The notes below the pieces were generated by a model, which saw only the letters and a program-made list of their open reading frames with translations, made no database searches and had not been told where the DNA came from. Made by a program: the position numbers and the translations under genes. Source: Verrucomicrobiaceae bacterium (GTDB lineage Bacteria > Verrucomicrobiota > Verrucomicrobiia > Verrucomicrobiales > Verrucomicrobiaceae). From it: a DNA stretch of 64,000 bases. The stretch lies in contig JAIXZA010000162.1 in the NCBI GenBank assembly GCA_027489965.1, forward strand, positions 248,001-312,000, written 5' to 3'. Positions 11,206-26,235 of the stretch are shown piece by piece (position 1 is the stretch's first letter; each line of letters begins with the position of its first letter).

Positions 11206-14200
11206 CTAATCCTTCTTCACCGTCTTGCTCTTCGAGGGCTTCAGGCTGCTGAGGTAGGCGACAACGTCCCGAACCTCGCGCGGGGTGAGGATGCCGAGCA
11301 TGGGGGGCATCATGGAGACGGGTGGGGTCTGCATGGTGATTTGGGCGCGGGGGAGTTTCTTCTCCGTGCTGTCGGCGAGGCGGAGAGTAACGGCGGTTTT
11401 GTCTTCTTTGAAAAGGGCTCCGGCGTGGTTACTGCCGTCCTTCATCGTGATAGAGACGAGGCCGTAGCCAGGGACAATCTTCGCCACGGGATTCACGAGT
11501 GACTCCAGCAACTCGGCCTTGGTGCGTTGGCCGCCGATGGTCTTTAAAATGGGGCCGACTTGGCTGCCTTCTTTGGCTTCGACAGTGTGGCAGGCGAGGC
11601 AGTTGGCACCAAGATGATTGGTGACGATTTCCTTGCCGTTGGTGGCATCGCCGCCTTCGATCAAATCATCGCGCGGGGCGGTGGTGCGGCTTTGCTGGTA
11701 GGTGGCGAGTCGCTCGGCGAGTGCGGGGAAAGCGGCGGAGGCTTCGAGGACATCGAGCTTCAGGCTGGGCTCTACCTTGCCGATAGCAAGACGCTGAAGC
11801 CAGGTATCCATCAGGGTGGCAGAAGTCTTGGTGTCGGAGCTGGCGAGCAGCTTCATGGCGGCTTGTTTCTCCTTTAAACTGCCCTGCTCCAAGACGCGTG
11901 AGGCTTCGGTGACGGCGCGGTCTTTTTGGTGAGCAAAGGTCTGCACGAGCGACTCCATGCGCAGCTCGGCGGGCGAGGTTTTAGCCGCGGTGAGTGTGAG
12001 TGTTTGGGCAAAGGCGGCATCGCTGGCGTGCTGCGCGGCCATGAGGCGGAGGGCTCCGACTCGCTGACTGGGCTTGGCTTTGGCATCGGCGATGATGCTG
12101 CGCAAAGCCGGAGCATCGACCTGGAGCGCGAGTTTCACCATGAGTTCGATTCCGGCGGCTTTTTGATCGGGATCGGTGAGCGCGAGAAGGTCGGCAACAC
12201 GCGGCTGAACGACGGCGGCGATGGCTGCGGCATCACGCGATTCGTATTTGCGGGCGACGCCGTCCACGAGGTCAAGTCGCGGTGGTTCGCTGTAGGCGAG
12301 CAGGGCGGTGAAGGCTTCACTTGAACCTGCGAGCGCGGCTTTGAGCAGGCGTTGAGTGTTTTCGATTTTACCAAGGCGGAGATTGGCATTGATGGCTCGT
12401 CGCGTGGTGACTTCGGAGGTGGCTTTGCCATCGAGCAAAGCAGCGAGCGCCGGAAGAGCTTCGGGGATGCCGATGTCGTCGTGGATGGCACGCGCGGCTT
12501 CATCGACAATGGCGCTGTCGGTATCCGCGAGCGCGGGCTGGATGAGTGGAGAATGCTGACGTGCCAGCGCGAGCACGGCGGCGAGACGGATGTTCCGCGT
12601 GCTGTCTGAAAGGCGTTTGGCGAGTGCTTCGGCTTTCAAAGAACCAGCCAAACCCGTGACGACAGCATGACGCAGCCAGGCATCGCCTGCATCCTGAGCG
12701 GCCATGGCCCAAAGAGCGTCTTCAGCACCTGCGAGCTGGAGTTTGCCAGCGGCGATGGCTGCGTAGAAGCGGACGCGTATGTTCTTCGATGCAATGAGAC
12801 TGGTGATGGCTTTGCGGCTGGCCTCGCTGGCTTTTGCGGGAGCATCGCCGAGCACTTTGAGGAGTTGCGTTTGGACTTCAGGATCGGTGTCTGCGAGGTG
12901 CGACTGAAGCTGTGAGTCATCGGTTTGCCCATGACGCAGGCCGATGCCGAGGCCCCAGATGGCGTGGAGTTTGGCGAGCCGTGGGGCTTTGCCATCGTCG
13001 AGAACTTCGGTGAAGACGGTCCATGCTTTGCGGGAAGCGAGTTCGAGCTGCGCAGCGAGACGCACGCGCTGATCGGCATGGGCGAGCAGGATTTGCAGTG
13101 CATCGGGCTCAGTCTTTTTGAAGCCGACACTGAGGAGCTTTTGCGTCTCGGCACGAGCGGGGTTCTTCGTCTCTTCATCGACACGCCAGATGGCACCTTT
13201 TTCATCCAGCGGATAACCGCCCACCCAGTCTGCCATGTAGAGCGCACCATCAGGGCCGAAGCTGAGACCGATGCCCATGATGCCAGCATTGATGACGCGT
13301 GGCCGGCTCATTTCAAAGGCGCTGCCTTTCGGCGTGATGGTGAAGGCTTCCATCTTCCCGGAGGGGAATTGATCGAGAATGAAATGGCCGTGCAGACGAG
13401 GTCCGAGTGCGGTGCCAGGCTCGTGAGCGAAGCCAGCGGGGCCGTTCGAGTAGTTCGCGAGCGGTGGGGTAATGAAGAGCGGGGTAGGCGCATTCGCCAG
13501 AATGCGGTCTGGAGCCTTCGCCCGCAGAATGGCGTCTGCGCCTACGGGAGCCTGCCAGATGCCTTCGCGCATCCAGCGGCTTTGTTCCTTCATGTATTGG
13601 TGGGAGCAGCGCCAGCCGGAGTCGCTCTGCTCGGTGATGAAAACGAAGCGCTCCTTTTCGCCGGGCATGTCGGCATCATTGTCCACGCCGAACATGTTGC
13701 CGAAGTCATCAAAGGCGATCTCCTGGATGTTGCGCAGGCCGTGGGCAAAGACTTCGAAGCCGCTGCCGTCGGGCTCGATGCGCATCACGGCGCCTTCGTG
13801 CGGGTAAAACCAATGTTTGCCTTCCTTGCTCGTCACATTCACGCCTTTGTCGCCAATGCTCCAATAGATGCGGCCATCGAGCCCGAGGCGCGGGCCGTGC
13901 ATGTCATGCCCGGCATAGGCGATGTGCATTCCGAAGCCATGCGCGACGACTTCGCGCACATCGGCGACGCCGTCATCGTCCGTGTCTTTGAGCCTCCAGA
14001 GATCCGGCGCGATGGTGGCATAGACCCAGCCGTCATGATACAGAATGCCCGCCGCGATGCCGGTGACTTCAGTGTTAAAACCTTCCGCGAAGACGGTCAT
14101 CTTGTCTGCGGTGCCATCGCCATCCGTGTCGCGGAGCTGGTAGATGCGCTCGCTGTGCACGGTGAGGTCTTTCCAGTCGATCGAGCCGTCTTTGTTATGG

Positions 14201-14499
14201 TCCTTCAGTCCGCCACGAGGCAGACGCAGCTTACCCGGAGCTAACTCGCGTTTCAGAAACGCCTGCTTCTCTTCCACACTCGTCAAACCCACATCATCTG
14301 CGATCCACATGGGATGCTCGCGAATGTCTAGATCGGCTACCTTGCGCCGAGTGGTCGCCGACACGTAAACGCGACCCTTTTCATCAACGGTGCAGGCAAC
14401 CGGATCAGGCACATTTAAGGCGCCAGACCAGCGATGAAGATTGACCTCAGCCGCAGAGGCCAAGGTCGATATAAGAAGACAGAGCGCAAAGGATCGCAT
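11206..14499 (-). CDS. PVC-type membrane-bound dehydrogenase: beta-propeller, HEAT repeats, cytochrome c
   Basis: A 1097-residue exported protein. The signal peptide is MRSFALCLLISTLASA. Residues 20-400 form a six-bladed propeller of the PVC dehydrogenase/sorbosone-dehydrogenase type (FAHGLRNIQEIAFDDFGNMFGVDNDAD, LSFGPDGALYMADWVGGYP). About residues 420-900 are alanine-rich HEAT-like repeats. The C-terminus is a heme-binding domain with CLACH (Cys967, Cys970, His971), followed by the family tail GILTPREVRDVVAYLSSLKPS. Such proteins are greatly expanded in Planctomycetota and Verrucomicrobiota and are thought to oxidise sugars or alcohols, passing electrons to the heme. The ATG at 14499 gives a clean signal peptide; the longer frame from 14631 does not. 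Its stop lies 15 bases from the convergent Tat protein gene. Confidence 0.9.
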   Translation of the reverse strand: MRSFALCLLISTLASAAEVNLHRWSGALNVPDPVACTVDEKGRVYVSATTRRKVADLDIREHPMWIADDVGLTSVEEKQAFLKRELAPGKLRLPRGGLKDHNKDGSIDWKDLTVHSERIYQLRDTDGDGTADKMTVFAEGFNTEVTGIAAGILYHDGWVYATIAPDLWRLKDTDDDGVADVREVVAHGFGMHIAYAGHDMHGPRLGLDGRIYWSIGDKGVNVTSKEGKHWFYPHEGAVMRIEPDGSGFEVFAHGLRNIQEIAFDDFGNMFGVDNDADMPGEKERFVFITEQSDSGWRCSHQYMKEQSRWMREGIWQAPVGADAILRAKAPDRILANAPTPLFITPPLANYSNGPAGFAHEPGTALGPRLHGHFILDQFPSGKMEAFTITPKGSAFEMSRPRVINAGIMGIGLSFGPDGALYMADWVGGYPLDEKGAIWRVDEETKNPARAETQKLLSVGFKKTEPDALQILLAHADQRVRLAAQLELASRKAWTVFTEVLDDGKAPRLAKLHAIWGLGIGLRHGQTDDSQLQSHLADTDPEVQTQLLKVLGDAPAKASEASRKAITSLIASKNIRVRFYAAIAAGKLQLAGAEDALWAMAAQDAGDAWLRHAVVTGLAGSLKAEALAKRLSDSTRNIRLAAVLALARQHSPLIQPALADTDSAIVDEAARAIHDDIGIPEALPALAALLDGKATSEVTTRRAINANLRLGKIENTQRLLKAALAGSSEAFTALLAYSEPPRLDLVDGVARKYESRDAAAIAAVVQPRVADLLALTDPDQKAAGIELMVKLALQVDAPALRSIIADAKAKPSQRVGALRLMAAQHASDAAFAQTLTLTAAKTSPAELRMESLVQTFAHQKDRAVTEASRVLEQGSLKEKQAAMKLLASSDTKTSATLMDTWLQRLAIGKVEPSLKLDVLEASAAFPALAERLATYQQSRTTAPRDDLIEGGDATNGKEIVTNHLGANCLACHTVEAKEGSQVGPILKTIGGQRTKAELLESLVNPVAKIVPGYGLVSITMKDGSNHAGALFKEDKTAVTLRLADSTEKKLPRAQITMQTPPVSMMPPMLGILTPREVRDVVAYLSSLKPSKSKTVKKD

Positions 14500-14623
14500 G
14501 GGGGGATTATCAAAATGGCGGGGCAACCAAAGATTGCCAGCTTTCATCGGGTTACGTATTTGCCAAGACAGCTTACGCAGCCAAAAAAGGTCAAATACCA
14601 CCATCAAAAATTTCAGACCTGAC

Positions 14624-15544
14624 TCAACCACGCGCTGCCAATGACAGCTCGATGATGCGGACGCAGAGTTCGGGGAACTCGATGCCGAGGGCTCTGGCGG
14701 CTTTGGGGAGGAGACTGCTGCTGGTCATGCCGGGGATGGTGTTGATCTCCAAGACATAGGGTGAGCCATCCGCGCGAAGCATGACATCAACGCGACCATA
14801 GACTTCCGTGCCGCAGCTCTTGAAAGCAGCCATGGCGGCGGCTTGGACTCTCTGGGTGGTTTCAGCATCGAGTTCCGCCGGGCAATGATAGAGCGTTTTA
14901 CCAGTGCCATTCATCCACGGGTATTTGTTGTTCATGTCGTAGAAGCCATCCACTGGCTCAATGTGGATGACGGGCAAAACTTGATCTCCGAGAATACCGA
15001 CGGTGAGTTCTTTGCCTTCGATGAATTCTTCGACCAAGGTCTCCGTGCCGTATTTTTTGGCCAGTTCGATGGCTTTCTGCCATTCTTCTTCTGTACGGCA
15101 GATGTTGACGCCGACGCTGGATCCTTCACGAGGGGGTTTGGAGACAAGAGGAATTGAAATGGCCAAAGGCTCGCTGCCGTCGAGTTTGTAGATTTGTGAA
15201 CGGGGTGTGGGAACACCTGCGGCGATGAATTTTTCTTTGCTTAGCGCTTTATCAAAAGCGATGCGGCTGGTGATGACGCCAGCGCCTGTGTAGCGGATGC
15301 CGCGTGCTTCCAGGATGGCTTGGATCTCGCCATCTTCACCAAAGGTGCCGTGAATGAGATTCATCGCGATGAAGACATCCTCAGGCAGGTCGAACTCGGG
15401 TCCGGTGACATCGACCTCGACGACATCTGCACCTACGGTGCGCAGTGCTTCAGCGACGCTTTCAGCCGTTTTGATGGAGACGTGGCGTTCGTTGCCAGGA
15501 CCGCCTTTGAGCAACGCGATTTTTTTTCCAGTGATGTCGAGCAT
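14624..15544 (-). CDS. ddl: D-alanine--D-alanine ligase
   Basis: A 306-residue ATP-grasp enzyme that joins two D-alanines for peptidoglycan precursors in the cytoplasm. Visible motifs: KIALLKGGPGNERHVSIKT at the N-terminus (first substrate loop), NLIHGTFGEDGEIQAILE, the YTGAGVITSRIAFDK stretch, SKPPREGSSVGV (lid loop), VEEFIEGKELTVGILG and the metal-binding YVLEINTIPGMTSSSLLPKAA. Length and motif order match Ddl. The ATG at 15544 is chosen because the 18 extra residues of the longer frame (from 15598) are not part of the family. It runs in the same direction as the PVC dehydrogenase gene, 124 bases upstream of its start. Confidence 0.95.
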   Translation of the reverse strand: MLDITGKKIALLKGGPGNERHVSIKTAESVAEALRTVGADVVEVDVTGPEFDLPEDVFIAMNLIHGTFGEDGEIQAILEARGIRYTGAGVITSRIAFDKALSKEKFIAAGVPTPRSQIYKLDGSEPLAISIPLVSKPPREGSSVGVNICRTEEEWQKAIELAKKYGTETLVEEFIEGKELTVGILGDQVLPVIHIEPVDGFYDMNNKYPWMNGTGKTLYHCPAELDAETTQRVQAAAMAAFKSCGTEVYGRVDVMLRADGSPYVLEINTIPGMTSSSLLPKAARALGIEFPELCVRIIELSLAARG

Positions 15545-15793: not shown

Positions 15794-17560
15794 ATGCCCA
15801 TTCATAGATCAAGTGACCTGAGAATGAACTTCCTGAGCTTTTTGGCTCTGGTGGTGGGTGTTTGTGGCATTGATGCAGCCGTGCCGATGATGCGCTTAGA
15901 GATCGAGCCCATCTGGGACGGCTTCCCGCTAAAAGTAACTGGCGCGGCAGAGGGTCGTGAGAGTATTCGATTGAGTCGGTTAGATTACCTCTTGTCAAAG
16001 TTGGCACTGAAAAAAGCCGATGGAGCCTGGGTAGAATCGAGAGACTGGTTTGCCTTTTTCAGTTTGGAAAAAGGCCAGTTGCGTACCGAAGCAGACGGAC
16101 TGCCTGCGGAGTCATTTACGGCCATTCGTTTCAAAGTGGGAGTGCCACCAGAAATCAATGTGGCAGATCCAGCGATCTGGCCCGTAGGACACGCGCTGAA
16201 TCCGCAAGTCTGTGGACTGCATTGGGGTTGGCAGGGGGGGTATGTCTTCATGGCTCTAGAAGGCTATGCACCGAAGCAGCAGGCTTTTTCTTTTCATGTC
16301 GCCAATGATCCCAATGTGGCCCTGGTGGAGTTGCCCGTGTCCTTTAGAGGTGGTGGTCCGCTGACGATCCATCTCACTTTAAATGCAGCCCGCTTGCTAA
16401 ATGGAGTGGACTTTGAGAAAGATGGAACGAGCACGCATAGCCGTGTCGGTGATCCACTAGCCACGAAGCTGCGTGCCAACATCGAGAAGGCCTTTCAGGT
16501 GGTGAAAGTCAGTCATGATCTATTTCAACCGTCGGCGGCAACAGCACAAAAGACACCGCTGCCAGCGGCCACAAAGGCTTATCCACTAGCCATTACGGAG
16601 CGCTTTCCCAAAGTGTCTCTACCTCCAGATAACCCACTGACGCGTGAAGGTGTGGAACTGGGAGAGATCTTATTTCATGACAAGCGGCTCAGTGTCAATA
16701 ACACACAATCCTGCACTAGTTGCCATGATCAAAGTCATGCCTTCAGTGATCTTCGGCGCTTCAGTCTAGGAGCTGAAGGGCAGGTGGGTAAGCGCCAGGC
16801 GATGCCGCTCTTTAATCTAGCGTGGGCTCAGGGCTTCTTCTGGGATGGCCGCGCTAAGACATTGCGGGAACAGGTGCTGATGCCAATTCAGGACGCACAT
16901 GAGATGAATGAAACGCTAGAGCGTGTGGCAGAGAAGATAAAGGCAGATGCTGATATGCTTGGTTTATTCGCAAAGGCCTTTGGTTCTAAGGAGATCACTA
17001 CAGAGCGGATGGCTAAAGCTTTGGAGCAGTATTTGTTAACGCTGATCTCTCAGGACTCACGCTTTGACCGCGCAGTGCGTAAGCTGGCTGATCTCAGTGA
17101 GCAGGAAAAGCGAGGCTTGCAGCTCTTTGTGACCGAGCATGATCCCAAACGCGGCCTGATGGGTGCGGACTGTTTTCATTGCCACGGCGGTACGCTTTTT
17201 ACCGATCATCAGTATCGCGATAATGGATTGAAATTGACGCCTGATGAGCTTGGGCGCATGGCGGTTACAGGACAGGTGACAGATCGCGGCAAGTTTAAGA
17301 CGCCATCGCTCAGGAACATTGCCGTCACAGCGCCTTACATGCATGACGGACGTTTTTCCACTCTCGAAGAAGTGGTGGCCCACTATAGCGGTTCGATGGA
17401 AAAACGTGACACGCTAGACCCCAATTTGGCCAAGCATCCCGCGGCTGGTATTCAACTCAGCGCCGAGGACCAGCAGGCTCTGATTGCCTTTCTCAAAACA
17501 CTCACAGATGAAGCATTCATCCAGCCTGCCAAATCAGATCAACTTGTAAAACAACCATGA
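15794..17560 (+). CDS. MbnP-like / MbnH-like (MauG-type di-heme peroxidase) fusion protein
   Basis: A 588-residue exported protein with two domains. After a signal peptide (NFLSFLALVVGVCGIDA), residues 30-225 look like MbnP: an early LEIEPIWDGFPLKV, SRLDYLLSKLAL, a GVPPEINV stretch and the hallmark LHWGWQGGYVFMALEGY (His143, Trp144, Trp146). Residues 265-575 are a bacterial cytochrome c peroxidase/MauG-family domain with two c-hemes, CTSCH (Cys307-His311) and CFHCH (Cys460-His464), and the motif APYMHDGRFSTLEEVVAHYSG. Tyr531 sits where classical peroxidases have the axial Met and MauG/MbnH have Tyr. In methanobactin-type operons, MbnH uses peroxide to convert an MbnP Trp to kynurenine, creating a copper site; here substrate and enzyme would be one chain. 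The stop overlaps the next gene by 4 bases. An alternative start is 15824. Confidence 0.85.
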   Translation: MPIHRSSDLRMNFLSFLALVVGVCGIDAAVPMMRLEIEPIWDGFPLKVTGAAEGRESIRLSRLDYLLSKLALKKADGAWVESRDWFAFFSLEKGQLRTEADGLPAESFTAIRFKVGVPPEINVADPAIWPVGHALNPQVCGLHWGWQGGYVFMALEGYAPKQQAFSFHVANDPNVALVELPVSFRGGGPLTIHLTLNAARLLNGVDFEKDGTSTHSRVGDPLATKLRANIEKAFQVVKVSHDLFQPSAATAQKTPLPAATKAYPLAITERFPKVSLPPDNPLTREGVELGEILFHDKRLSVNNTQSCTSCHDQSHAFSDLRRFSLGAEGQVGKRQAMPLFNLAWAQGFFWDGRAKTLREQVLMPIQDAHEMNETLERVAEKIKADADMLGLFAKAFGSKEITTERMAKALEQYLLTLISQDSRFDRAVRKLADLSEQEKRGLQLFVTEHDPKRGLMGADCFHCHGGTLFTDHQYRDNGLKLTPDELGRMAVTGQVTDRGKFKTPSLRNIAVTAPYMHDGRFSTLEEVVAHYSGSMEKRDTLDPNLAKHPAAGIQLSAEDQQALIAFLKTLTDEAFIQPAKSDQLVKQP

Positions 17561-20500
17561 AAAAAACCGTAGCTTTACTGCTCTCTCTTAGCTTCAGCGT
17601 CCTAGCTGGGAATGATGACCATGGCATCAGTGATGTACTGTCTGCTGAAGCCCAGGCCTTTGCCCCTGCGTTTATTGTCAAGACAGGCCCTGCGCCGACA
17701 GCGGCGACCCGCAGCACGGTAGGGCAATGGGGCTCTGTGATTAACTGGACACCACATTTACCAGTTACAGCAGCCACGCTCCCAGATGGCAGACTGCTTA
17801 CCTTTTCATCCAATCAACGAACCACTTTCCCTGGTGGCGTCGAGTTCACCTTTGCGGCTGTTTGGAATCCTGCAACGGGTGCCTTCACCGAGATCAATAA
17901 CACACGCCATGACATGTTTTGCGGTGGAACAGCGATGCTTCCAGATGGCCGTGTCGTGATCAATGGCGGGCGTAACACAACGCGGCTGAGCAGCATCTTT
18001 GATTGGCGTACGAACCAATGGTCGGCTATGCCAAACATGAATGATCCACGCTGGTATAACACCACGGTGGCTTTGACTGATGGCAGTGTTTTTACCGTTA
18101 CTGGCGATGGAGGCACGAATACCGCGGAGCGTTGGGTAGAAGCCGCAGGTTGGGGGCGACTGAGCAATATCAACTGGGCTTCTGTCGTGGCTCAACCAGG
18201 GTATCTGACACGCTGGCACCCCTTCATTTTGGTGGCGCCTGACAATCGTTTATTCCATGGCGGTCCGACAGATGAGATGAATTGGATCACCACGATAGGC
18301 AATGGCAGCCTGACCTCTGCCAATGCCAATGTGCCAGGAGCGCACTACCCAAAGGAAGGCACTTTTGCGATGTATAACGAAGGCCGTATTCTTGTGATGG
18401 GTGGTTCAGCCAATACGAATCCCAATCCGTCAGATGGTAGCACGGGAACAAGCACCAACTTGGCCTTCACCATTGATATTCGCGGATCGCAGCCAGTCGT
18501 TGCGCCGACATCGTCGATGAAATTTGTTCGGCAATTTTGCAACAGCGTCATTTTACCAAACGGTGAAGTCATGGTCATCGGCGGTAATAGCAGTGGGCTC
18601 AAGTTTAATGACACGGGATCCATTTTAGCGCCAGAAATCTGGAATCCAACCACAGGTCAATGGCGTGAAGTCACCGACATGGCTATCCCTCGCAATTATC
18701 ACTCGTTGGCCCTGCTACTCCCCGATGGCCGCGTGTGGTCAGGTGGCAGTGGTTTGTCTGGAAACGCTGCTGATCATCGTGATGCGCAGCTCTATACACC
18801 ACCGATGCTATTTAATGCCGATGGTAGCAATGCTACTCGCCCAACCTTGAGCAATAGCCCAAGCAGCATTGGCCCAGGTCAGGTTTTCAACATTCAAGGC
18901 AGCAGCGGAATCACCCGCTTCACCTTTATCAAGATGTCCTCACAGACACATTCAGTGAATACTGACCTGCGTTTCCTCGAACTGCCGTTTACCAGCCCGA
19001 GTACGGGTAATTATCAAATCACCGCCCATAGCAATATCAGTGTGATGACCCCTGGCTACTGGATGCTTTTTGGACTGAACGCTCAAGGGGCCTACTCGGT
19101 GGCTAGCATCATTCAAGTGGCTACAACCAATGTGCCAACACTTGGCAATCCAGGACCACAGACAACAGCGAGCACAAAGACGGCATCGCTCCAGCTCGTC
19201 GCCGCAGGCACCGGCACGCTGACCTACAGTGCCACGGGTTTGCCTCCAGGATTGAGCATCAATGCGACGACGGGACTCATCAGTGGCACAGTGACCGCGG
19301 CACCAGCTGTCTTCAATGTCGTAGCAAGGGTTCAGTCGTCCCTTGGCTTTAACACCAGTGTTCCCTTCACTTGGACAATCGTCCCATCCACGCTGGGCTC
19401 AGGCACGATCTTACGGGAATGGTGGCTGAACATTGGTAGCGGCATGACGGTTCAAGATCTGACCAACAACACAGCATATCCCAACAATCCTAGTGGGTCC
19501 GATCAACCGACGAGCTTCGAGGCTCCGTCGAATTGGGCTGATAACTATGGCACGAGAATGCGTGGATGGGTTCACGCAGCTGTCACAGGGCAGTATCGCT
19601 TTTGGATCGCCAGTGATGACAATGGACGCCTATTGTTGAGCACGAATGATAATCCAGCCAATGCCGGGCAAATTGCCTCAGTGGGTGATTGGACAGATTC
19701 TCGGCAGTGGACGAAATTTGCCACGCAGGCCTCCGCACTCATCACTCTGCAAGCAGGCCAGCGTTACTACATCGAAGCGCTGATGAAAGAAGGGGCTGGC
19801 GGTGATAATCTTGCTATTGGCTGGCAACCGCCGGGAGCTTCGGGTCCCGAAGTGATTCCTGGCATCAATTTATCTCCATGGTCCCCCAATCGTGCTCCTA
19901 TTGTGACCAATCCTGGAGCTCGCAGTCATGTCGTCGGCACGGCAATCACGCTAGCGATTCAAGCCAGCGATGTGGATGGGGATACACTTTCCTATTCTGC
20001 GACCGGTCTGCCGAATGGAATGACCATTCAACCCTCGAGCGGCGTCATCAACGGCACACCGAGCGCTGTCGGAACTTTTAACGTGGTGGTCAGCGTGACA
20101 GACAACAAAGGCTCTCCAAGCACAGCGGGCTTCACGTGGACCATCGTGCAGACTTTGGTCCTGAGCAAGCCACTGACAACCGCTAGACCCATCAATACAG
20201 CGGTCTCATATACGGCCACGAGTACTGGTGGCGTGAATACGCGTTATCGCTGGAATTTTGGTGATGGAAGTGCAACGACCTCTTACAGTGCTAACCCTAC
20301 GGCTTCTCGTAGTTATGTGGCTCCAGGTCGTTATCTGGTGACTCTGGATGCTACAGACGATTCTGCCATCGTCCGCAGTGTGACGTTTTATCAAGTCATT
20401 CATGCTCCTCTTACAACTCGCAAACCTACGGTCTCTTCAAACATTGTTTTCGAAGATCTCGCCACCGGTAACGATCGCATCTGGGTGGTCAATCAAGATG

Positions 20501-23500
20501 CCGATACCGTCACGGTCTTTGATGCTGTGACTCGGGCTAAACTGGTCGAAACCACGGTCGGCACAGGTCCACGTAATATTGCCATCGCACCGGATGGTCG
20601 GGCGTGGGTAACCAATGTGGAATCCTCCACCATTAGCATTCTCAATGGCACCAGCTATGCCGTTGCTGCCACTGTGACTTTGCCAAGAGGATCGCGGCCC
20701 TTTGGCATCGCCTTTGATCCGGTCGGCACAGCCGCTTTCGTAGCACTTGAGGGCAGCGGACAATTGCTGAAACTCAATCCAATCACCGGAACCCAAATCA
20801 GCAGCCTCAGTGTGGGTCAACATGCACGGCATGTATCGGTCAATGCGGACGGCACGCGTGTTTACGTGAGTCGCTTTATCTCACCAGCACTGCCAGGTGA
20901 GAACACCCTAACGCCTGACACCACAGGTCGAGGTGGTGAGGTTGTTGTCGTTGCTGGTAGCACGCTGGCCTTTGAGAGGATGATCATTCTCCAACATAGC
21001 GAACTCTCTGATTCGCAGAACTCGGCGCGAGGCATCCCCAATTATCTGGGTGCAACAGCTTTGTCTCCAGACGGCCTTTCGGCCTGGGTGCCATCTAAAC
21101 AAGATAACATCAAACGCGGAACAGCGCGCAATGGCGTCGGCCTCAATCATGATCAAACGCTGCGTGCGATCAGCAGTCGCATCAATCTGACCACCCAGAC
21201 GGAAGATTATGCGGGTCGGGTGGACTATGACAATGCAGGCATGCCAAGCGCAGCTATCTATGATCCCTGGGGTGGCTATGTCTTTGTAGCTCTGGAGAGC
21301 AGTCGTGCCGTGGCGGTGATTGATGCTTGGAATAAAGAGATCATTGCTCGCTTCGATGTGGGACGTGCTCCTCAGGGCTTAGCCATCTCGCCAGATGGAC
21401 TGACTCTGTTTGTCCACAACTTCATGGATCGCAGCGTCGGCGTCTTTAATGTTTCAAGTATTGTTTCAGGTGGTAATGCGCAGCCCATTACCGTGGCTAC
21501 ATTGGCCAGCGTGCAGACTGAAAAACTCACTGCAACGGTGTTAAAAGGAAAACAGTTATTCTATGATGCATTAGATGTCCGAGTGGCTCTTCAGGAATAC
21601 ATGTCTTGCGCTTCTTGTCACAATGATGGCGGCCAGGATGGGCGGGTGTGGGATCTAACTGGTTTTGGTGAAGGATTGAGAAATACGATCACACTGCGTG
21701 GTCACGGGAATCATGGGATGCTGCATTGGACGGGTAACTTTGATGAAGTGCATGACTTTGAAGGACAAATTCGCACACTCGCGGGTGGCACCGGTTTGAT
21801 GACCGATACCCAGTTCAATACAGGCACCCGCAGGCAACCACTCGGAGATCCAAAGGCTGGTGTCAGTGTAGATCTAGATGCTCTGGCTGCCTATGTCAGA
21901 TCACTGACCGTTGAATCACGCAGCCCTTTCCGAAACACCGATGGCACACTGACAGCGGCGGCGGTTTCAGGAGAGCTAGTCTTCCGTCAGCAAAACTGCG
22001 CTAGCTGCCATAGCGGCACCAACTTCACAAATAGTGCCCTTAATGTCTTCCGTAATATTGGCACCATCAAGCCGATCAGCGGTAAGCGTTTGAATGGAAC
22101 ACTCACAGGCTTTGATGTTCCAACTTTGCGTGGTCTGTGGGCGACAGGTCCGTATCTGCATGATGGATCAGTCGCCACGCTTTCAGCCGTAGTCTTAGCG
22201 CATCAAGGCACGGCGATTCCTACCGCCGATCTTAATAATCTTGTGGCCTATCTTCAACAGATTGATGATGTTCCCGCCACTGCACCGCTGCCAGTCACGG
22301 TGCAGATTAGCACGACTGCGGCTGCTCCGGTTTCAGCTGCCTTTAATGTCAACGCAACCTTTAGCCATCCAGTGACTGGATTTGTCCTCAGTGATATCAG
22401 TCTCAGCGGTGGTAGTGTCAGTGCGCTAAATGGTTCTGGTAGCAGTTACACTTTCACCGTCACTCCTACCGCAAACGTGGCCATCAGTCTTGATGCAAAC
22501 GTGGTTCAGGATGCGGCAAGTCTGGGCAACCAAGCCTCAAATACATTAAATCTCTCCTACAGTGCACCTGTTAATCCATCGGCTCTTGTGGGGCAGGACA
22601 TTGGTGCACCTTCCCTCGCAGGATCAACGACGTTTGACTCAGCTACTGGGACCTACACCTTGACCGGATCAGGCGCAGAGATTTTCTTTGATCATGACGA
22701 CTTCCAATACGCTCTAACAACACTCACAGGCGATGGCGAAATCAGGGCTCGTGTGCGCAGTCTCAGCAATACCAATCCTTGGGCCAAAGCAGGCGTCATG
22801 ATCCGTGAATCCAGCGCCACCGGATCACGTCATGCTCTTACCTGCATCACACCGCCCTCAGCGGGCAATGGTTTTGCGATGATTAGTCGCGCCGCGCTGA
22901 ATGGTGCCTCTGACTTCGTTGGTGGATCTGCCGTGAATGCTTCTCCTAATAACTGGGTCAGACTTGTCAGAGTGGGCAACGTGCTCACCAGCTTCACATC
23001 AGCCAACGGAACCGCCTGGACTCAGCTTGGAACGGTCACTTTGAGTGGTTTGACTAATCAAGTGCTTATCGGACTGGCTCTGAGCTCAACAGACGATAGT
23101 TTGTTAGCCGAAGGCGTCTTTGACAATGTGCAGATTACTGGCAGCACTGGAGGCATTGCCCCGACGTCGAGACTGACTTCCACCTCAGCTATCGAAGCAG
23201 GTGCGTTCAATGTGAGAACTCAATTTTCTCAAACGGTAACTGGATTAACCCTGTCTGACTTTACCGTGACGAATGGAACCGCCTCCAATCTCACAGGTTC
23301 AGGTGCCATCTACAATGTCACGATTACGCCTTTAGCCGCTGGTGCCGTAACCATTCGTTTGCCTGCCGCTGCTGTTGTGAATACAGCCAATGTGGCCAGC
23401 AGTGCCTCTAACACTTTAAGTGTGACCTTCTCACCTCCTGTCAACGTGGCTCTTGCGGGCCAAGATGTCGGCAATGTTCAGCTAACTGGCAGCACCGTCT

Positions 23501-26235
23501 TTAACAGCACCACTGGCACTTATACTCTGCAAGGAGCCGGTGCGGAGATCTTCTTCAATGCCGATGGATTCCAATACGCTCTGACTCAACTCACCGGCGA
23601 TGGCGAAATTCGTGCGCGTGTCACCAGTCAGACCAATTCCAATCCCTGGGCCAAGGCGGGGGTTATGTTCCGAGAGAACCTCAGCGCAGGCTCACGCCAT
23701 GCAACGGTCTTTACCACACCAGTCACTGCCGCAAACGGGTTTGGTGTTGTCTGGCGTCCGACAGCCAATGGCGCCTCCAATTATGCTGGCGGACCAGTCG
23801 TGAATGCGGCTCCCAATAACTGGGTCCGCCTTGTTCGTGCTGGGAATGTGGTCACCGCTTTCTCGTCCACAAATGGCAATGCCTGGACCACCATCAGCAC
23901 TGCCACTTTGACCAATCTGTCCTCGTCGCTGTATGTAGGTCTGGTCGTCACCTCAGCCACGGCTACACAGTTGAGCACGGCGACTTTTGACAATGTGCAG
24001 ATCGTCGGTTCACTCACGGCGGTTGCGCCAGCTGTGACGCTTTCTTCTTCGAGTGCTGTCGAAAGTGGAGCCTTCACGGTGCAGACGCGGTTCACACAAG
24101 CGGTCACGGGACTCGCTCCTTCCGATTTCAATGTGACCAATGGCAATGCCTCAAATCTGACTGGTTCAGGAAACGCTTATGCCATCACGATCACACCTAC
24201 ACTTGCAGGAAATGTCACCGTTTCCTTGCCCGCCGCGGCGGCTGTGAATGCAGGAAATGTCGCTAGCTTGGCCTCCAACTCGCTAACGGTCGCCTTTACC
24301 CCGCCTGCCGCCGTGACATTGACAGGTCGAGACATCGGTACTGTTGGGGTTGCAGGTAATACAAGTCTGAATACCACCAACGGCACGTACACGGTTCGTG
24401 GAGCAGGTGAAGAGATCTTCTTCTCCGAAGACAGCTTCCATTTTGCAGCAGCACAACTGACTGGTGATGGAGAAATCCGCGCCCGAGTCACAGGTCTAAC
24501 AAACACCGGTGATTGGGCTAAAGCAGGCGTCATGTTCCGTGAAAATCTTAACGCCGGTTCTCGGCACGCCATGTTCTGCTCCATGCCTGCTGCCTCAGGC
24601 TTTGGCACGGGGCTTGTCTGGCGTCCGACTGCAAATGCTGCTGCCGCATTTCAATTCGGCCCATCACTGAATCCAGCTCCAAATAATTGGTTACGTCTGG
24701 TTCGTGTCGGCAATGTCATTTCTTCGTTTGCCTCCTCCAACGGCACCACTTGGACGAGCATTCAGTCGATCACTTTCACAGCTTTGCCATCCACGCTGTA
24801 TGTTGGTCTGGCAGTCACCGCAACAGACCCGCAGACACTGGCTGCAGGTACTTTTGATAACGTGCAGATTGTCGGCATCACTACTGCGGGCTCCATGCCG
24901 GCTATTCCTGTCAGTGGTGGAGGCACCGTGACTGGCGGTGGCGTCGGTTACAGTCAGATAGCTGATACTGATTTTGATGGGGATGATGTGAATGACCTCA
25001 TCGAATACGCCCTCGGAAGCAATGTTGCCTACGATGGTGGCTGGTGGCTTACCACGATGGCTGGTGGTCGTGTCGATGCTCATTTGACTTACCTAGATTC
25101 CGTTACTGACGTGACCTTCAACTTGGAAACTTCATCCGACTTAGTGAACTGGGTGCCACTTGCGCTTGCCTCAACGGTCAGTGATTTAGGTGGTGGCATA
25201 GTCCAGCGAACTTGGTCAGGCATCACTGGCTTAAACGGTCAAAGCGTGCAACGTGGTTTGCTTCGATTACGAGTGACTCACAACAACGGGCTTACAGCCG
25301 CCAGCGCACCTCAGGGTTGGCAGCGGTTTAATCTTGACGTTGGTACACAATCGGTTGGCGTCAGCCTACTCAATGCACCGCTCTTTTCAGGCATCGTCAC
25401 GGCCCGCACCGCCGCTGATCAAGTTCAAATGGCATCTGTCGAGGCACTCTCTATTGACCCTGCTGCCAGCTACTACCTGGAAGTGCGTGATGGAGCACAG
25501 GCAGGTCACCGCTACGAAATCAGCAGTATCAATGGTTCTGTCGCCACCCTGAATCTGACCTCTGCCAATTCCACTCAGGCAGCGCTTCCAGAAGATATCA
25601 TTGGAGCCCGTATCTTTGTACGGCCGCATATGACTCTCGGCCAAATCTTCCCCAAAGCCACAATGACAGGCAGCACGCGCAGCAGCGGAGCCGATCAGGT
25701 GCTTTTCCACAATGGCACGGGCTGGGAAACGTACTGGTTGAATCAAACCGCTACAAGACAACAATGGGTGCTTACTGGAGATGCCACACTGGCCTCTCGT
25801 GACAACCAAATCATTTCTCCAGGAACGGGAGTGATGGCAAAGATTCTCAGCCTGCCAAAATCCATGACCTTAACGGGTTATGCGCGTCTGAATCCCTTCC
25901 GCCGCCTCCTAAAAGCGGGGCATAATTTCTTGGCTCTGCCGCGTCCTGTCGATGCCACACCGTTGCAATTGGACCTCACCACCGAAGTTGGATTCATTCC
26001 CTCCACCCGCCTAACCACTGCCGACCAGCTACAGCTATGGACGGGCGACAGCCAAGTTGGTGCAACCGCCTACACCACCTATTGGCTTCGTGGATCTGCG
26101 GCCTCAGCCAATTGGGTGCTACAAACCGACGCTAACAATACCAGCGTTAGCGATACCCTGAAACTCCCTGCCAACAAAGCCTTCTTCCTCAAAACAATGC
26201 CAACCAGCACTCCCAATGGCTGGCTTACCGATTAG
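17557..26235 (+). CDS. Giant exported copper radical oxidase with PA14, PKD, propeller and di-heme MauG-like domains
   Basis: A 2892-residue protein with signal peptide MKKTVALLLSLSFSVLAG. Domains by eye: galactose-oxidase Kelch propeller (40-420) plus C-terminal E-set domain (420-525); Ig-like He_PIG (527-615); PA14 (618-775); He_PIG (778-866); PKD (868-955); YVTN-type propeller (958-1330); di-heme cytochrome/MauG-like domain (1335-1580) with two CASCH motifs (Cys1351-His1355, Cys1481-His1485); three Ig-plus-LamG-like units (1583-2443); and a TIGR02597-type tail (2450-2892). Galactose oxidase residues are conserved: Cys122 (MFCGG) and Tyr167 (RWYN) for the cross-linked cofactor, Tyr381-His382 (NYHS) and His465 (THSVNTD) as copper ligands. 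The stacking Trp of galactose oxidase appears absent, as in glyoxal oxidases. It oxidises an alcohol or aldehyde to make peroxide, by inference. It overlaps the upstream fusion gene (ATGA). Confidence 0.88.
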   Translation: MKKTVALLLSLSFSVLAGNDDHGISDVLSAEAQAFAPAFIVKTGPAPTAATRSTVGQWGSVINWTPHLPVTAATLPDGRLLTFSSNQRTTFPGGVEFTFAAVWNPATGAFTEINNTRHDMFCGGTAMLPDGRVVINGGRNTTRLSSIFDWRTNQWSAMPNMNDPRWYNTTVALTDGSVFTVTGDGGTNTAERWVEAAGWGRLSNINWASVVAQPGYLTRWHPFILVAPDNRLFHGGPTDEMNWITTIGNGSLTSANANVPGAHYPKEGTFAMYNEGRILVMGGSANTNPNPSDGSTGTSTNLAFTIDIRGSQPVVAPTSSMKFVRQFCNSVILPNGEVMVIGGNSSGLKFNDTGSILAPEIWNPTTGQWREVTDMAIPRNYHSLALLLPDGRVWSGGSGLSGNAADHRDAQLYTPPMLFNADGSNATRPTLSNSPSSIGPGQVFNIQGSSGITRFTFIKMSSQTHSVNTDLRFLELPFTSPSTGNYQITAHSNISVMTPGYWMLFGLNAQGAYSVASIIQVATTNVPTLGNPGPQTTASTKTASLQLVAAGTGTLTYSATGLPPGLSINATTGLISGTVTAAPAVFNVVARVQSSLGFNTSVPFTWTIVPSTLGSGTILREWWLNIGSGMTVQDLTNNTAYPNNPSGSDQPTSFEAPSNWADNYGTRMRGWVHAAVTGQYRFWIASDDNGRLLLSTNDNPANAGQIASVGDWTDSRQWTKFATQASALITLQAGQRYYIEALMKEGAGGDNLAIGWQPPGASGPEVIPGINLSPWSPNRAPIVTNPGARSHVVGTAITLAIQASDVDGDTLSYSATGLPNGMTIQPSSGVINGTPSAVGTFNVVVSVTDNKGSPSTAGFTWTIVQTLVLSKPLTTARPINTAVSYTATSTGGVNTRYRWNFGDGSATTSYSANPTASRSYVAPGRYLVTLDATDDSAIVRSVTFYQVIHAPLTTRKPTVSSNIVFEDLATGNDRIWVVNQDADTVTVFDAVTRAKLVETTVGTGPRNIAIAPDGRAWVTNVESSTISILNGTSYAVAATVTLPRGSRPFGIAFDPVGTAAFVALEGSGQLLKLNPITGTQISSLSVGQHARHVSVNADGTRVYVSRFISPALPGENTLTPDTTGRGGEVVVVAGSTLAFERMIILQHSELSDSQNSARGIPNYLGATALSPDGLSAWVPSKQDNIKRGTARNGVGLNHDQTLRAISSRINLTTQTEDYAGRVDYDNAGMPSAAIYDPWGGYVFVALESSRAVAVIDAWNKEIIARFDVGRAPQGLAISPDGLTLFVHNFMDRSVGVFNVSSIVSGGNAQPITVATLASVQTEKLTATVLKGKQLFYDALDVRVALQEYMSCASCHNDGGQDGRVWDLTGFGEGLRNTITLRGHGNHGMLHWTGNFDEVHDFEGQIRTLAGGTGLMTDTQFNTGTRRQPLGDPKAGVSVDLDALAAYVRSLTVESRSPFRNTDGTLTAAAVSGELVFRQQNCASCHSGTNFTNSALNVFRNIGTIKPISGKRLNGTLTGFDVPTLRGLWATGPYLHDGSVATLSAVVLAHQGTAIPTADLNNLVAYLQQIDDVPATAPLPVTVQISTTAAAPVSAAFNVNATFSHPVTGFVLSDISLSGGSVSALNGSGSSYTFTVTPTANVAISLDANVVQDAASLGNQASNTLNLSYSAPVNPSALVGQDIGAPSLAGSTTFDSATGTYTLTGSGAEIFFDHDDFQYALTTLTGDGEIRARVRSLSNTNPWAKAGVMIRESSATGSRHALTCITPPSAGNGFAMISRAALNGASDFVGGSAVNASPNNWVRLVRVGNVLTSFTSANGTAWTQLGTVTLSGLTNQVLIGLALSSTDDSLLAEGVFDNVQITGSTGGIAPTSRLTSTSAIEAGAFNVRTQFSQTVTGLTLSDFTVTNGTASNLTGSGAIYNVTITPLAAGAVTIRLPAAAVVNTANVASSASNTLSVTFSPPVNVALAGQDVGNVQLTGSTVFNSTTGTYTLQGAGAEIFFNADGFQYALTQLTGDGEIRARVTSQTNSNPWAKAGVMFRENLSAGSRHATVFTTPVTAANGFGVVWRPTANGASNYAGGPVVNAAPNNWVRLVRAGNVVTAFSSTNGNAWTTISTATLTNLSSSLYVGLVVTSATATQLSTATFDNVQIVGSLTAVAPAVTLSSSSAVESGAFTVQTRFTQAVTGLAPSDFNVTNGNASNLTGSGNAYAITITPTLAGNVTVSLPAAAAVNAGNVASLASNSLTVAFTPPAAVTLTGRDIGTVGVAGNTSLNTTNGTYTVRGAGEEIFFSEDSFHFAAAQLTGDGEIRARVTGLTNTGDWAKAGVMFRENLNAGSRHAMFCSMPAASGFGTGLVWRPTANAAAAFQFGPSLNPAPNNWLRLVRVGNVISSFASSNGTTWTSIQSITFTALPSTLYVGLAVTATDPQTLAAGTFDNVQIVGITTAGSMPAIPVSGGGTVTGGGVGYSQIADTDFDGDDVNDLIEYALGSNVAYDGGWWLTTMAGGRVDAHLTYLDSVTDVTFNLETSSDLVNWVPLALASTVSDLGGGIVQRTWSGITGLNGQSVQRGLLRLRVTHNNGLTAASAPQGWQRFNLDVGTQSVGVSLLNAPLFSGIVTARTAADQVQMASVEALSIDPAASYYLEVRDGAQAGHRYEISSINGSVATLNLTSANSTQAALPEDIIGARIFVRPHMTLGQIFPKATMTGSTRSSGADQVLFHNGTGWETYWLNQTATRQQWVLTGDATLASRDNQIISPGTGVMAKILSLPKSMTLTGYARLNPFRRLLKAGHNFLALPRPVDATPLQLDLTTEVGFIPSTRLTTADQLQLWTGDSQVGATAYTTYWLRGSAASANWVLQTDANNTSVSDTLKLPANKAFFLKTMPTSTPNGWLTD
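22300..24890 (+). repeat. Three tandem Ig-plus-LamG-like coding repeats
   Basis: Within the giant gene, a unit of about 850 bp occurs three times. Each encodes an Ig-like stretch (F..TF..PVTGF.LSDI...G..S.L.GSG..Y) and a domain with TYTL.G.GAEIFF, QLTGDGEIRARV, WAKAGVM.RE, NNWVRLVR.GNV and FDNVQI.G. The LamG-like parts begin near 22580, 23442 and 24313. The copies are clearly diverged, so the expansion is not recent. Confidence 0.85.

Follow-up and report, generated by a model that had tools for sequence, protein, structure and literature searches.

Two overlapping genes in a 64,000-nucleotide stretch (the window) of the Verrucomicrobiaceae bacterium draft genome GCA_027489965.1 (6.5 Mb, 183 contigs; contig JAIXZA010000162.1, positions 248,001 to 312,000, forward strand) encode a fusion of MbnP-type and MbnH-type domains and a giant protein that, from its sequence, is predicted to be a copper radical oxidase (CRO) joined to a YVTN propeller and a di-heme cytochrome. 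We lean toward the explanation that the fusion is a dedicated periplasmic copper-loading and oxidative maturation or activation factor for the CRO part of the giant. Both open reading frames (ORFs) were called in the window on the forward strand, at 15794–17560 (588 aa) and 17557–26235 (2892 aa, stop included in the coordinates), and the ATGA at 17557–17560, in which a sequence-only reading of the region had seen a stop/start overlap tying two genes into an operon, is confirmed by the ORF calls and by the sequence itself.

The pairing goes beyond chance. We searched 96 related genomes for MbnP and for the giant, and found MbnP in 60 of them (85 places) and the giant in 37, the latter count excluding four of 41 matched genomes: G049, with a short oxidase; G061 and G095, with weak kelch matches; and G040, with a damaged gene. 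A fusion lies directly upstream of the giant in 26 of the 96 genomes, as orthologous pairs with the same layout, of which 20 have the identical four-nucleotide overlap, five lie within 30 nt of each other, and one overlaps by ~300 nt when the longest giant start is used; one of the 26, in G039, is from nearly the same organism as the window. The sequence-only reading had held that homologues usually lying apart would speak against it, and among these relatives it was not refuted. The fusion state is itself general, with MbnP joined to the heme domain in 82 of the 84 copies classified (the copy left out, in G040, contains stops). In a tree of 81 fusions, built by a quick method and with some long branches, all 26 linked fusions fall within one clade of 36 (SH-aLRT 93), the remainder of which comprises nine fusions in CRO genomes that are unlinked to the giant, and one in G017, a 77% complete genome without a CRO, in which the copy is 163 nt from a contig end. 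None of the 45 fusions outside the clade is linked to a giant, and a fusion of this CRO clade is present in 35 of the 37 CRO genomes and in one of the 59 others (Fisher p 1e-22, uncorrected for kinship). The two CRO genomes without a clade fusion in the tree are G037 and G050; in G050 a partial fusion, not placed in the tree, and a partial oxidase both end at contig ends. Loci L219 and L246 may yet be linked, because their unlinked fusions end less than 1 kb from a contig end.

Broader sampling gives a similar pattern. An even sample of the phylum (387 genomes) contains the oxidase in nine genomes and MbnP in 22; eight of the nine oxidases adjoin MbnP, and a contig end truncates the remaining one. 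When named genomes were scanned with an oxidase profile, 80 loci were kept (some from genomes already in the relative set); a fusion, or a cut piece of one, adjoins the giant at 27 of the 45 verrucomicrobial loci among them. A rival explanation would be that the two genes share only copper-dependent regulation, both being needed at the same copper supply, with their proteins having no action on each other. We consider this very unlikely, because one specific fusion clade tracks the CRO even when unlinked, and because MauG-type enzymes are paired with copper-type domains in unrelated phyla as well (see below).

The fusion gene (15794–17560) is supported by its ORF, Pfam matches, orthologues, and fold matches, and its product begins with a hydrophobic stretch that, as judged by eye, would putatively direct its export. 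Pfam MbnP (PF20243) matches residues 33–213 (103.6 bits, above the cut-off of 27) in an MbnP-type copper domain that occupies 15890–16468 (approximately residues 33–225, from Pfam, alignment, and model), and CCP_MauG matches residues 285–430 (188.2 bits versus a cut-off of 25.6) in a MauG/MbnH-type di-heme domain at 16595–17527 (approximately residues 268–578), which finds the MbnH structure 6e1c in a PDB sequence search (E 6.2e-46). With the fusion as a single-sequence query there was no MbnP match in the PDB, and a small-profile search matched MbnP 7l6g weakly (E 0.027). In an AlphaFold2 model made from 24 sequences (mean pLDDT 79.6), residues 29–245 resemble M. trichosporium MbnP 7l6g (Z 17.3, rmsd 3.4, 207 aligned, 18% identity) and residues 262–579 resemble 6e1c (Z 30.6). 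We accept the MbnP fold because the structural comparison matched 7l6g where the sequence searches were weak, and the model indicates that the MbnP and MbnH folds are both present even though curated equivalog scores were missed; with the MbnH model TIGR04039 the fusion scores 247.7 bits, short of the cut-off of 362.85.

Conserved residues in the two halves of the fusion are consistent with these folds. The heme motifs are CTSCH (307–311) and CFHCH (460–464), and residues W350, Q360, P364, E370, and Y531 are invariant in 81 of 81 fusions, with the first four spaced as in MauG (W+10=Q, +4=P, +6=E); the MauG residues Q103, P107, E113, and Y294 are numbered from PDB titles, and we take MauG W93 to be the counterpart of the Trp in this set. 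In the MbnP half, W144, the first Trp of WxW, is kept in 80 of 81 fusions (with one gap), and H168 and H215 are each kept in all 81. These three residues form a candidate copper site in which W144 would be the kynurenine precursor. Alignment with three stand-alone MbnPs places H168 at the His of HLGSTGC (or HLGSIGC) and H215 at the Met of the CM motif, so that the Met ligand position is a His in the fusion, and the Cys residues of those MbnPs are absent; the MbnP copper ligands are presumably the kynurenine-forming Trp of WxW, the His, and the Met.

The giant (17557–26235; ORF and orthologues of about 2000–3500 aa) starts with a stretch that looks signal-like by eye, and its residues 55–521 (17719–19119) match galactose oxidase of family AA5, with 9g43 as the closest solved structure (E 2e-99). 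C122, Y167, Y381, H382, and H465 correspond to galactose oxidase Cys228, Tyr272, Tyr495, His496, and His581, and all five are invariant across the 41 giants compared; we take the two Tyr and two His residues to be the copper ligands, and Cys228 to be the thioether residue. The giant scores 152.9 bits with the model for GlxA (NF052501), under its curated cut-off of 800. GlxA of Streptomyces, which is reportedly a bacterial case of assisted CRO maturation, has to our knowledge no heme domain. The Trp290 position is replaced in every one of the 41 giants (by D, S, N, A, or H), and the Arg330 position, which aligns with Thr218, is variable and never Arg. This Trp/Arg pair is given as the signature of galactose 6-oxidases in the available text of PMC11267884. 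We set galactose aside as a substrate because the pair is missing; galactose is thus unlikely, and a different alcohol or aldehyde is the likelier substrate.

The rest of the giant is modular, with Pfam matches across the protein to GO-like_E_set, Kelch, He_PIG, PA14, PKD, DUF1349, and, weakly, CCP_MauG. He_PIG, PA14, and He_PIG modules (19123–20145) and a PKD domain (20194–20373) precede a YVTN-type beta-propeller (20407–21456, approximately residues 951–1300, from NCBIfam beta_rpt_yvtn and the model) and the di-heme cytochrome domain (21502–22296, approximately residues 1316–1580, with CASCH at 1351–1355 and again at 1481–1485); Big_12 and DUF1349 repeats follow (22294–24816, by Pfam, with approximate boundaries), and then a C-terminal region without a family match (24817–26232) that is common to most giants of the same genus. 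A model of the propeller/di-heme part (pLDDT 90.6, pTM 0.92) has as its best PDB folds the propeller 1l0q and hydrazine synthase 5c2v_B, with quinohemoprotein amine dehydrogenase 1jju_B in sixth place; the hydrazine synthase beta-gamma model NF052342 gives a partial match of 76.8 bits, far under its cut-off of 1250. The di-heme part conserves its two CxxCH motifs as well as an HW..NFDE..DFE motif, and none of its conserved positions is a counterpart of the Glu or Pro of MauG and peroxidases, in a region where the profile alignment is weak. H1549 stands where the MauG-type partner has its axial Tyr and is at least 90% conserved in 49 aligned di-heme copies; no axial Met, or MauG Tyr, to the second heme is seen in this domain. 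These features suggest that the di-heme part acts in electron transfer rather than in peroxidase chemistry, and a cytochrome c peroxidase is not favored, with no Glu equivalent seen and His at the axial place. We note that propeller/di-heme proteins 44–48% identical to that of the giant, apparently without an oxidase domain, occur elsewhere (G000:C168:20987-22798 and similar proteins), and the module seems to be reused outside CRO giants.

The three-part architecture is present in one ORF at 65 of the 80 loci of the named-genome scan (58 of the 63 uncut by a contig end), and giants of this type are found in Verrucomicrobiota, Gammaproteobacteria, Chloroflexi, Rhodothermales, Blastocatellia, and Myxococcota, with phyla taken from record titles. 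Four loci (L146, L166, L177, and L201) are titled Akkermansia muciniphila or Klebsiella pneumoniae and have sequences resembling other Verrucomicrobia or Gammaproteobacteria; these metagenome-bin labels are probably wrong. The three parts are split over neighboring ORFs at L150, L153, and L176, and uncut L206 and L212 have the oxidase alone; at L150 (8953-15702) the oxidase ORF and the propeller/di-heme ORF are ~30 bases apart. The presence of the di-heme domain in the CRO chain at so many loci would fit a giant that is an electron-transfer dehydrogenase, in which electrons from the copper site would bypass O2 and travel through the propeller/di-heme part to the fusion, as a relay, or to some other carrier; so would H1549, which suggests the bis-His ligation typical of electron transfer, and the resemblance of the propeller to parts of hydrazine synthase and quinohemoprotein amine dehydrogenase. 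However, the split of the CRO from the propeller/di-heme part at L150 shows that a single chain is unnecessary, propeller/di-heme proteins exist without a CRO, and we regard the dehydrogenase explanation as improbable.

A MauG-type di-heme gene adjoins the giant at 11 of the 35 non-verrucomicrobial loci, and by neighbor clustering it is the sole functional partner type common to many loci across phyla. The MauG residue set is complete in all 11 partners, and a copper-type domain with a GGMxxHxHG...M pattern lies 5' of the heme domain or in a neighboring ORF. Pfam YtkA-like scores above its cut-off for L182, L189, L194, L198, and L210, and below it for L192; it makes no call for L186 or L209, and for L195, L200, and L207 the YtkA-like region was judged from the alignment only. 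YtkA-domain proteins act in CuA assembly, according to the available text of PMC13344008 and PMC9145763. In the 107-genome gammaproteobacterial family of L194 the oxidase is present in nine genomes, all nine of which rank among the top ten by partner score (584 bits or more); the remaining one of the ten, G569, has an oxidase piece at a contig end, and partner and oxidase are linked in all ten. A strong partner (343 bits and over) is encoded elsewhere in six of 18 genomes lacking an adjoining MauG-type gene. The suggestion in the sequence-only reading that the two proteins form a functional unit is well supported by adjacency, by the partner clade, by co-occurrence when unlinked, and by this analogue in other phyla, whereas the choice among the mechanisms it offered (peroxide from the oxidase driving heme-dependent Trp oxidation or electron transfer, or copper supply by the MbnP part) is one that we infer, and the hemes of the giant do not look peroxidase-like.

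A different role for the fusion would be that of a downstream user or scavenger of peroxide, in which the MauG-type half protects the cell, or makes only its own kynurenine, and leaves the oxidase untouched. CROs produce H2O2, and the distal Glu/Pro/Gln/Trp set of MauG and the di-heme peroxidases is intact in the fusion. Yet all of the partners compared, both the fusions and those outside Verrucomicrobiota, have Tyr (Y531 in the fusion) at the MauG axial position, where peroxidases carry a Met. Moreover, a fused copper domain would be superfluous to a scavenger, and two different putative copper domains accompany the MauG-type enzyme. We consider the scavenger explanation unlikely, although DtpA has also been proposed to remove the H2O2 made by GlxA (in the available text of PMC4736821).

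Given that two kinds of putative copper domain are joined to one type of MauG-like enzyme and kept beside one type of oxidase, a dedicated maturation or activation factor is the simplest explanation for the fusion. We propose that the fusion and the giant would be translated together and exported, and that c-type hemes would be attached. The MauG-type half, using H2O2 that may come from the CRO, could then form kynurenine by oxidizing Trp144 in the attached MbnP half, completing a Kyn/His/His copper site. From there the MbnP half may pass copper to the CRO site (Cys122, Tyr167, Tyr381, His382, and His465), and the MauG-type half may provide oxidizing equivalents for completing or activating the Tyr-Cys radical cofactor. 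The active CRO would oxidize its substrate, held in place by the carbohydrate-binding-like modules of the giant, at an alcohol or aldehyde group, and the propeller/di-heme part of the giant might take electrons or sense the redox state.

Several observations weigh against a dedicated maturation factor. The fusion scores 34.8 bits with TIGR04052 (MbnP_like_WxW), below its curated cut-off of 140. No fusion lies alongside any of the 17 giants retrieved as unlinked, some of which are near contig ends and four of which are ~75% identical to the giant of the window; there is no neighboring partner at 18 of the 45 verrucomicrobial loci and no adjoining MauG-type gene at 24 of the 35 others, with some of these loci cut by contig ends. 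In the L194 family, 14 genomes with lower partner scores (411–542 bits) have no oxidase, and in 12 of the 18 genomes without an adjoining MauG-type gene (23 non-verrucomicrobial genomes searched) nothing scored above 105 bits. MbnP-MbnH fusions of the sister clades adjoin other genes, and the module is therefore not specific to CROs as a class. Finally, fungal galactose oxidase needs nothing beyond copper and O2 to form its Tyr-Cys bond, and a maturase therefore need not be required.

More broadly, the MauG-type proteins with copper chaperones might constitute a bacterial class of dedicated CRO maturases or activators that evolved at least twice, with MbnP as the copper domain in Verrucomicrobiota and the YtkA-like domain in Gammaproteobacteria and Myxococcota; this is a tentative extension, in which one protein would load copper and then complete or ignite the Tyr-Cys radical of another enzyme through a high-valent heme at a distance. 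If true, it would add a further job for the MauG family, beside formation of tryptophan tryptophylquinone and of kynurenine.

The sister-class fusions have neighbors of their own. The genome of the window has a second fusion, of the sister class (locus L092, 5456-9832, contig C15), after which comes a glucose/sorbosone-dehydrogenase-like protein that matches CBM96, and a similar ORF follows the fusion in L096, L097, L103, and L105, as judged by eye; sister-class fusion and dehydrogenase-like gene could possibly be a second system with a different oxidoreductase partner. In L100, L101, L106, and L107, sister-class fusions lie near ORFs of ~530 aa that are DUF1501-like by eye, and near very large open-ended ORFs matching the He_PIG/PA14 region of the giant. 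Locus L279 (G040:C3:218000-232000) retains a damaged oxidase gene, in a genome without the oxidase-linked fusion clade. Co-decay of oxidase and partner in G040 is unsupported; the damaged MbnP there is nearer to the sister class (55%) than to the oxidase-linked clade (45–49%).

In the window, the gene pair is flanked by a D-Ala-D-Ala-ligase-like gene on the opposite strand and by a purine-nucleoside-phosphorylase-like gene, from translations read by eye, and because of these neighbors we take the unit to be of two genes. On the reverse strand at 11206–14631 is, as judged by eye, a large protein with HEAT-like repeats and a CxxCH cytochrome motif near its C terminus, a kind of protein that Planctomycetes and Verrucomicrobia commonly have. 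Among the cultured organisms of the oxidase-domain scan, Brevifollis gellanilyticus (81%) is the closest relative.

MbnP/MbnH pairs, MauG enzymes, and copper radical oxidases are already known. In the open-licence literature we found no account of this fusion, of its partnership or operon with a CRO, or of the oxidase-propeller-di-heme architecture; titles and the starts of abstracts held nothing relevant joining MauG with galactose oxidase, titles nothing relevant on galactose oxidase in Verrucomicrobia, and no paper came up that joins bacterial tyrosyl-radical CROs with cytochrome c. Laboratory work relies on added horseradish peroxidase to reach full CRO activity (from the available text of PMC9770985). 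In the present system the oxidase is accompanied by one exported protein that combines a MauG-type heme pair with a predicted kynurenine copper site, the same heme type having a different copper domain in other phyla, and the question of activation becomes directly testable with two purified proteins. The CRO-propeller-cytochrome architecture is also revealed as widespread.

Comparison with known systems places both proteins in a broader context. The giant keeps all five copper and Tyr-Cys residues of galactose oxidase and AA5, but is without the W290/R330 pair and is fused to propeller and di-heme domains. It shares with the beta/gamma part of hydrazine synthase the order of propeller and then di-heme domain, as well as the fold match to 5c2v_B, but falls far short of that family's cut-off and is additionally fused to a CRO. 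The fusion has the same two folds as the methanobactin-associated MbnP/MbnH pair (7l6g and 6e1c) and keeps the WxW Trp and the MauG-type heme residues; in contrast, the pair is encoded by separate genes and the fusion is one chain, His215 stands in place of the CM-motif Met, the Cys residues are missing, and the partner is a copper oxidase rather than a methanobactin operon or TonB receptor. CorA of methanotrophs binds Cu(I) through two His, water, and kynurenine, and its gene is beside one for a di-heme MauG-like protein (in the available text of PMC3912023). The predicted Kyn144/His168/His215 site of the fusion resembles the two His and kynurenine of CorA, although CorA/MopE with CorB/SACCP putatively belongs to a different sequence family, and the available part of PMC3912023 describes no oxidase linkage.

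Two CRO systems offer the closest parallels for activation. A heme peroxidase encoded beside a fungal CRO activates that oxidase through one-electron oxidation, with electron paramagnetic resonance evidence (in the available text of PMC9770985). As in that Perox-AlcOx tandem, the CRO gene here has a heme-enzyme gene as its neighbor, and by analogy activation is putative; unlike it, the heme enzyme is of MauG type rather than a class II peroxidase (we claim no homology), the fungal peroxidase is without a copper domain, its gene is head-to-head with that of the oxidase, and the fungal CRO has no fused cytochrome. Streptomyces GlxA requires both a copper chaperone, Sco, and a heme peroxidase, DtpA, for its maturation, and the authors of that work suggest that DtpA oxidizes the chaperone-bound copper (in the available text of PMC4736821). 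In that system too, as far as this text describes it, a copper chaperone and a heme enzyme serve a bacterial radical copper oxidase; Sco and DtpA are unrelated to the fusion and come from separate genes, whereas here the putative chaperone and the heme enzyme are one chain that would be translated with the oxidase.
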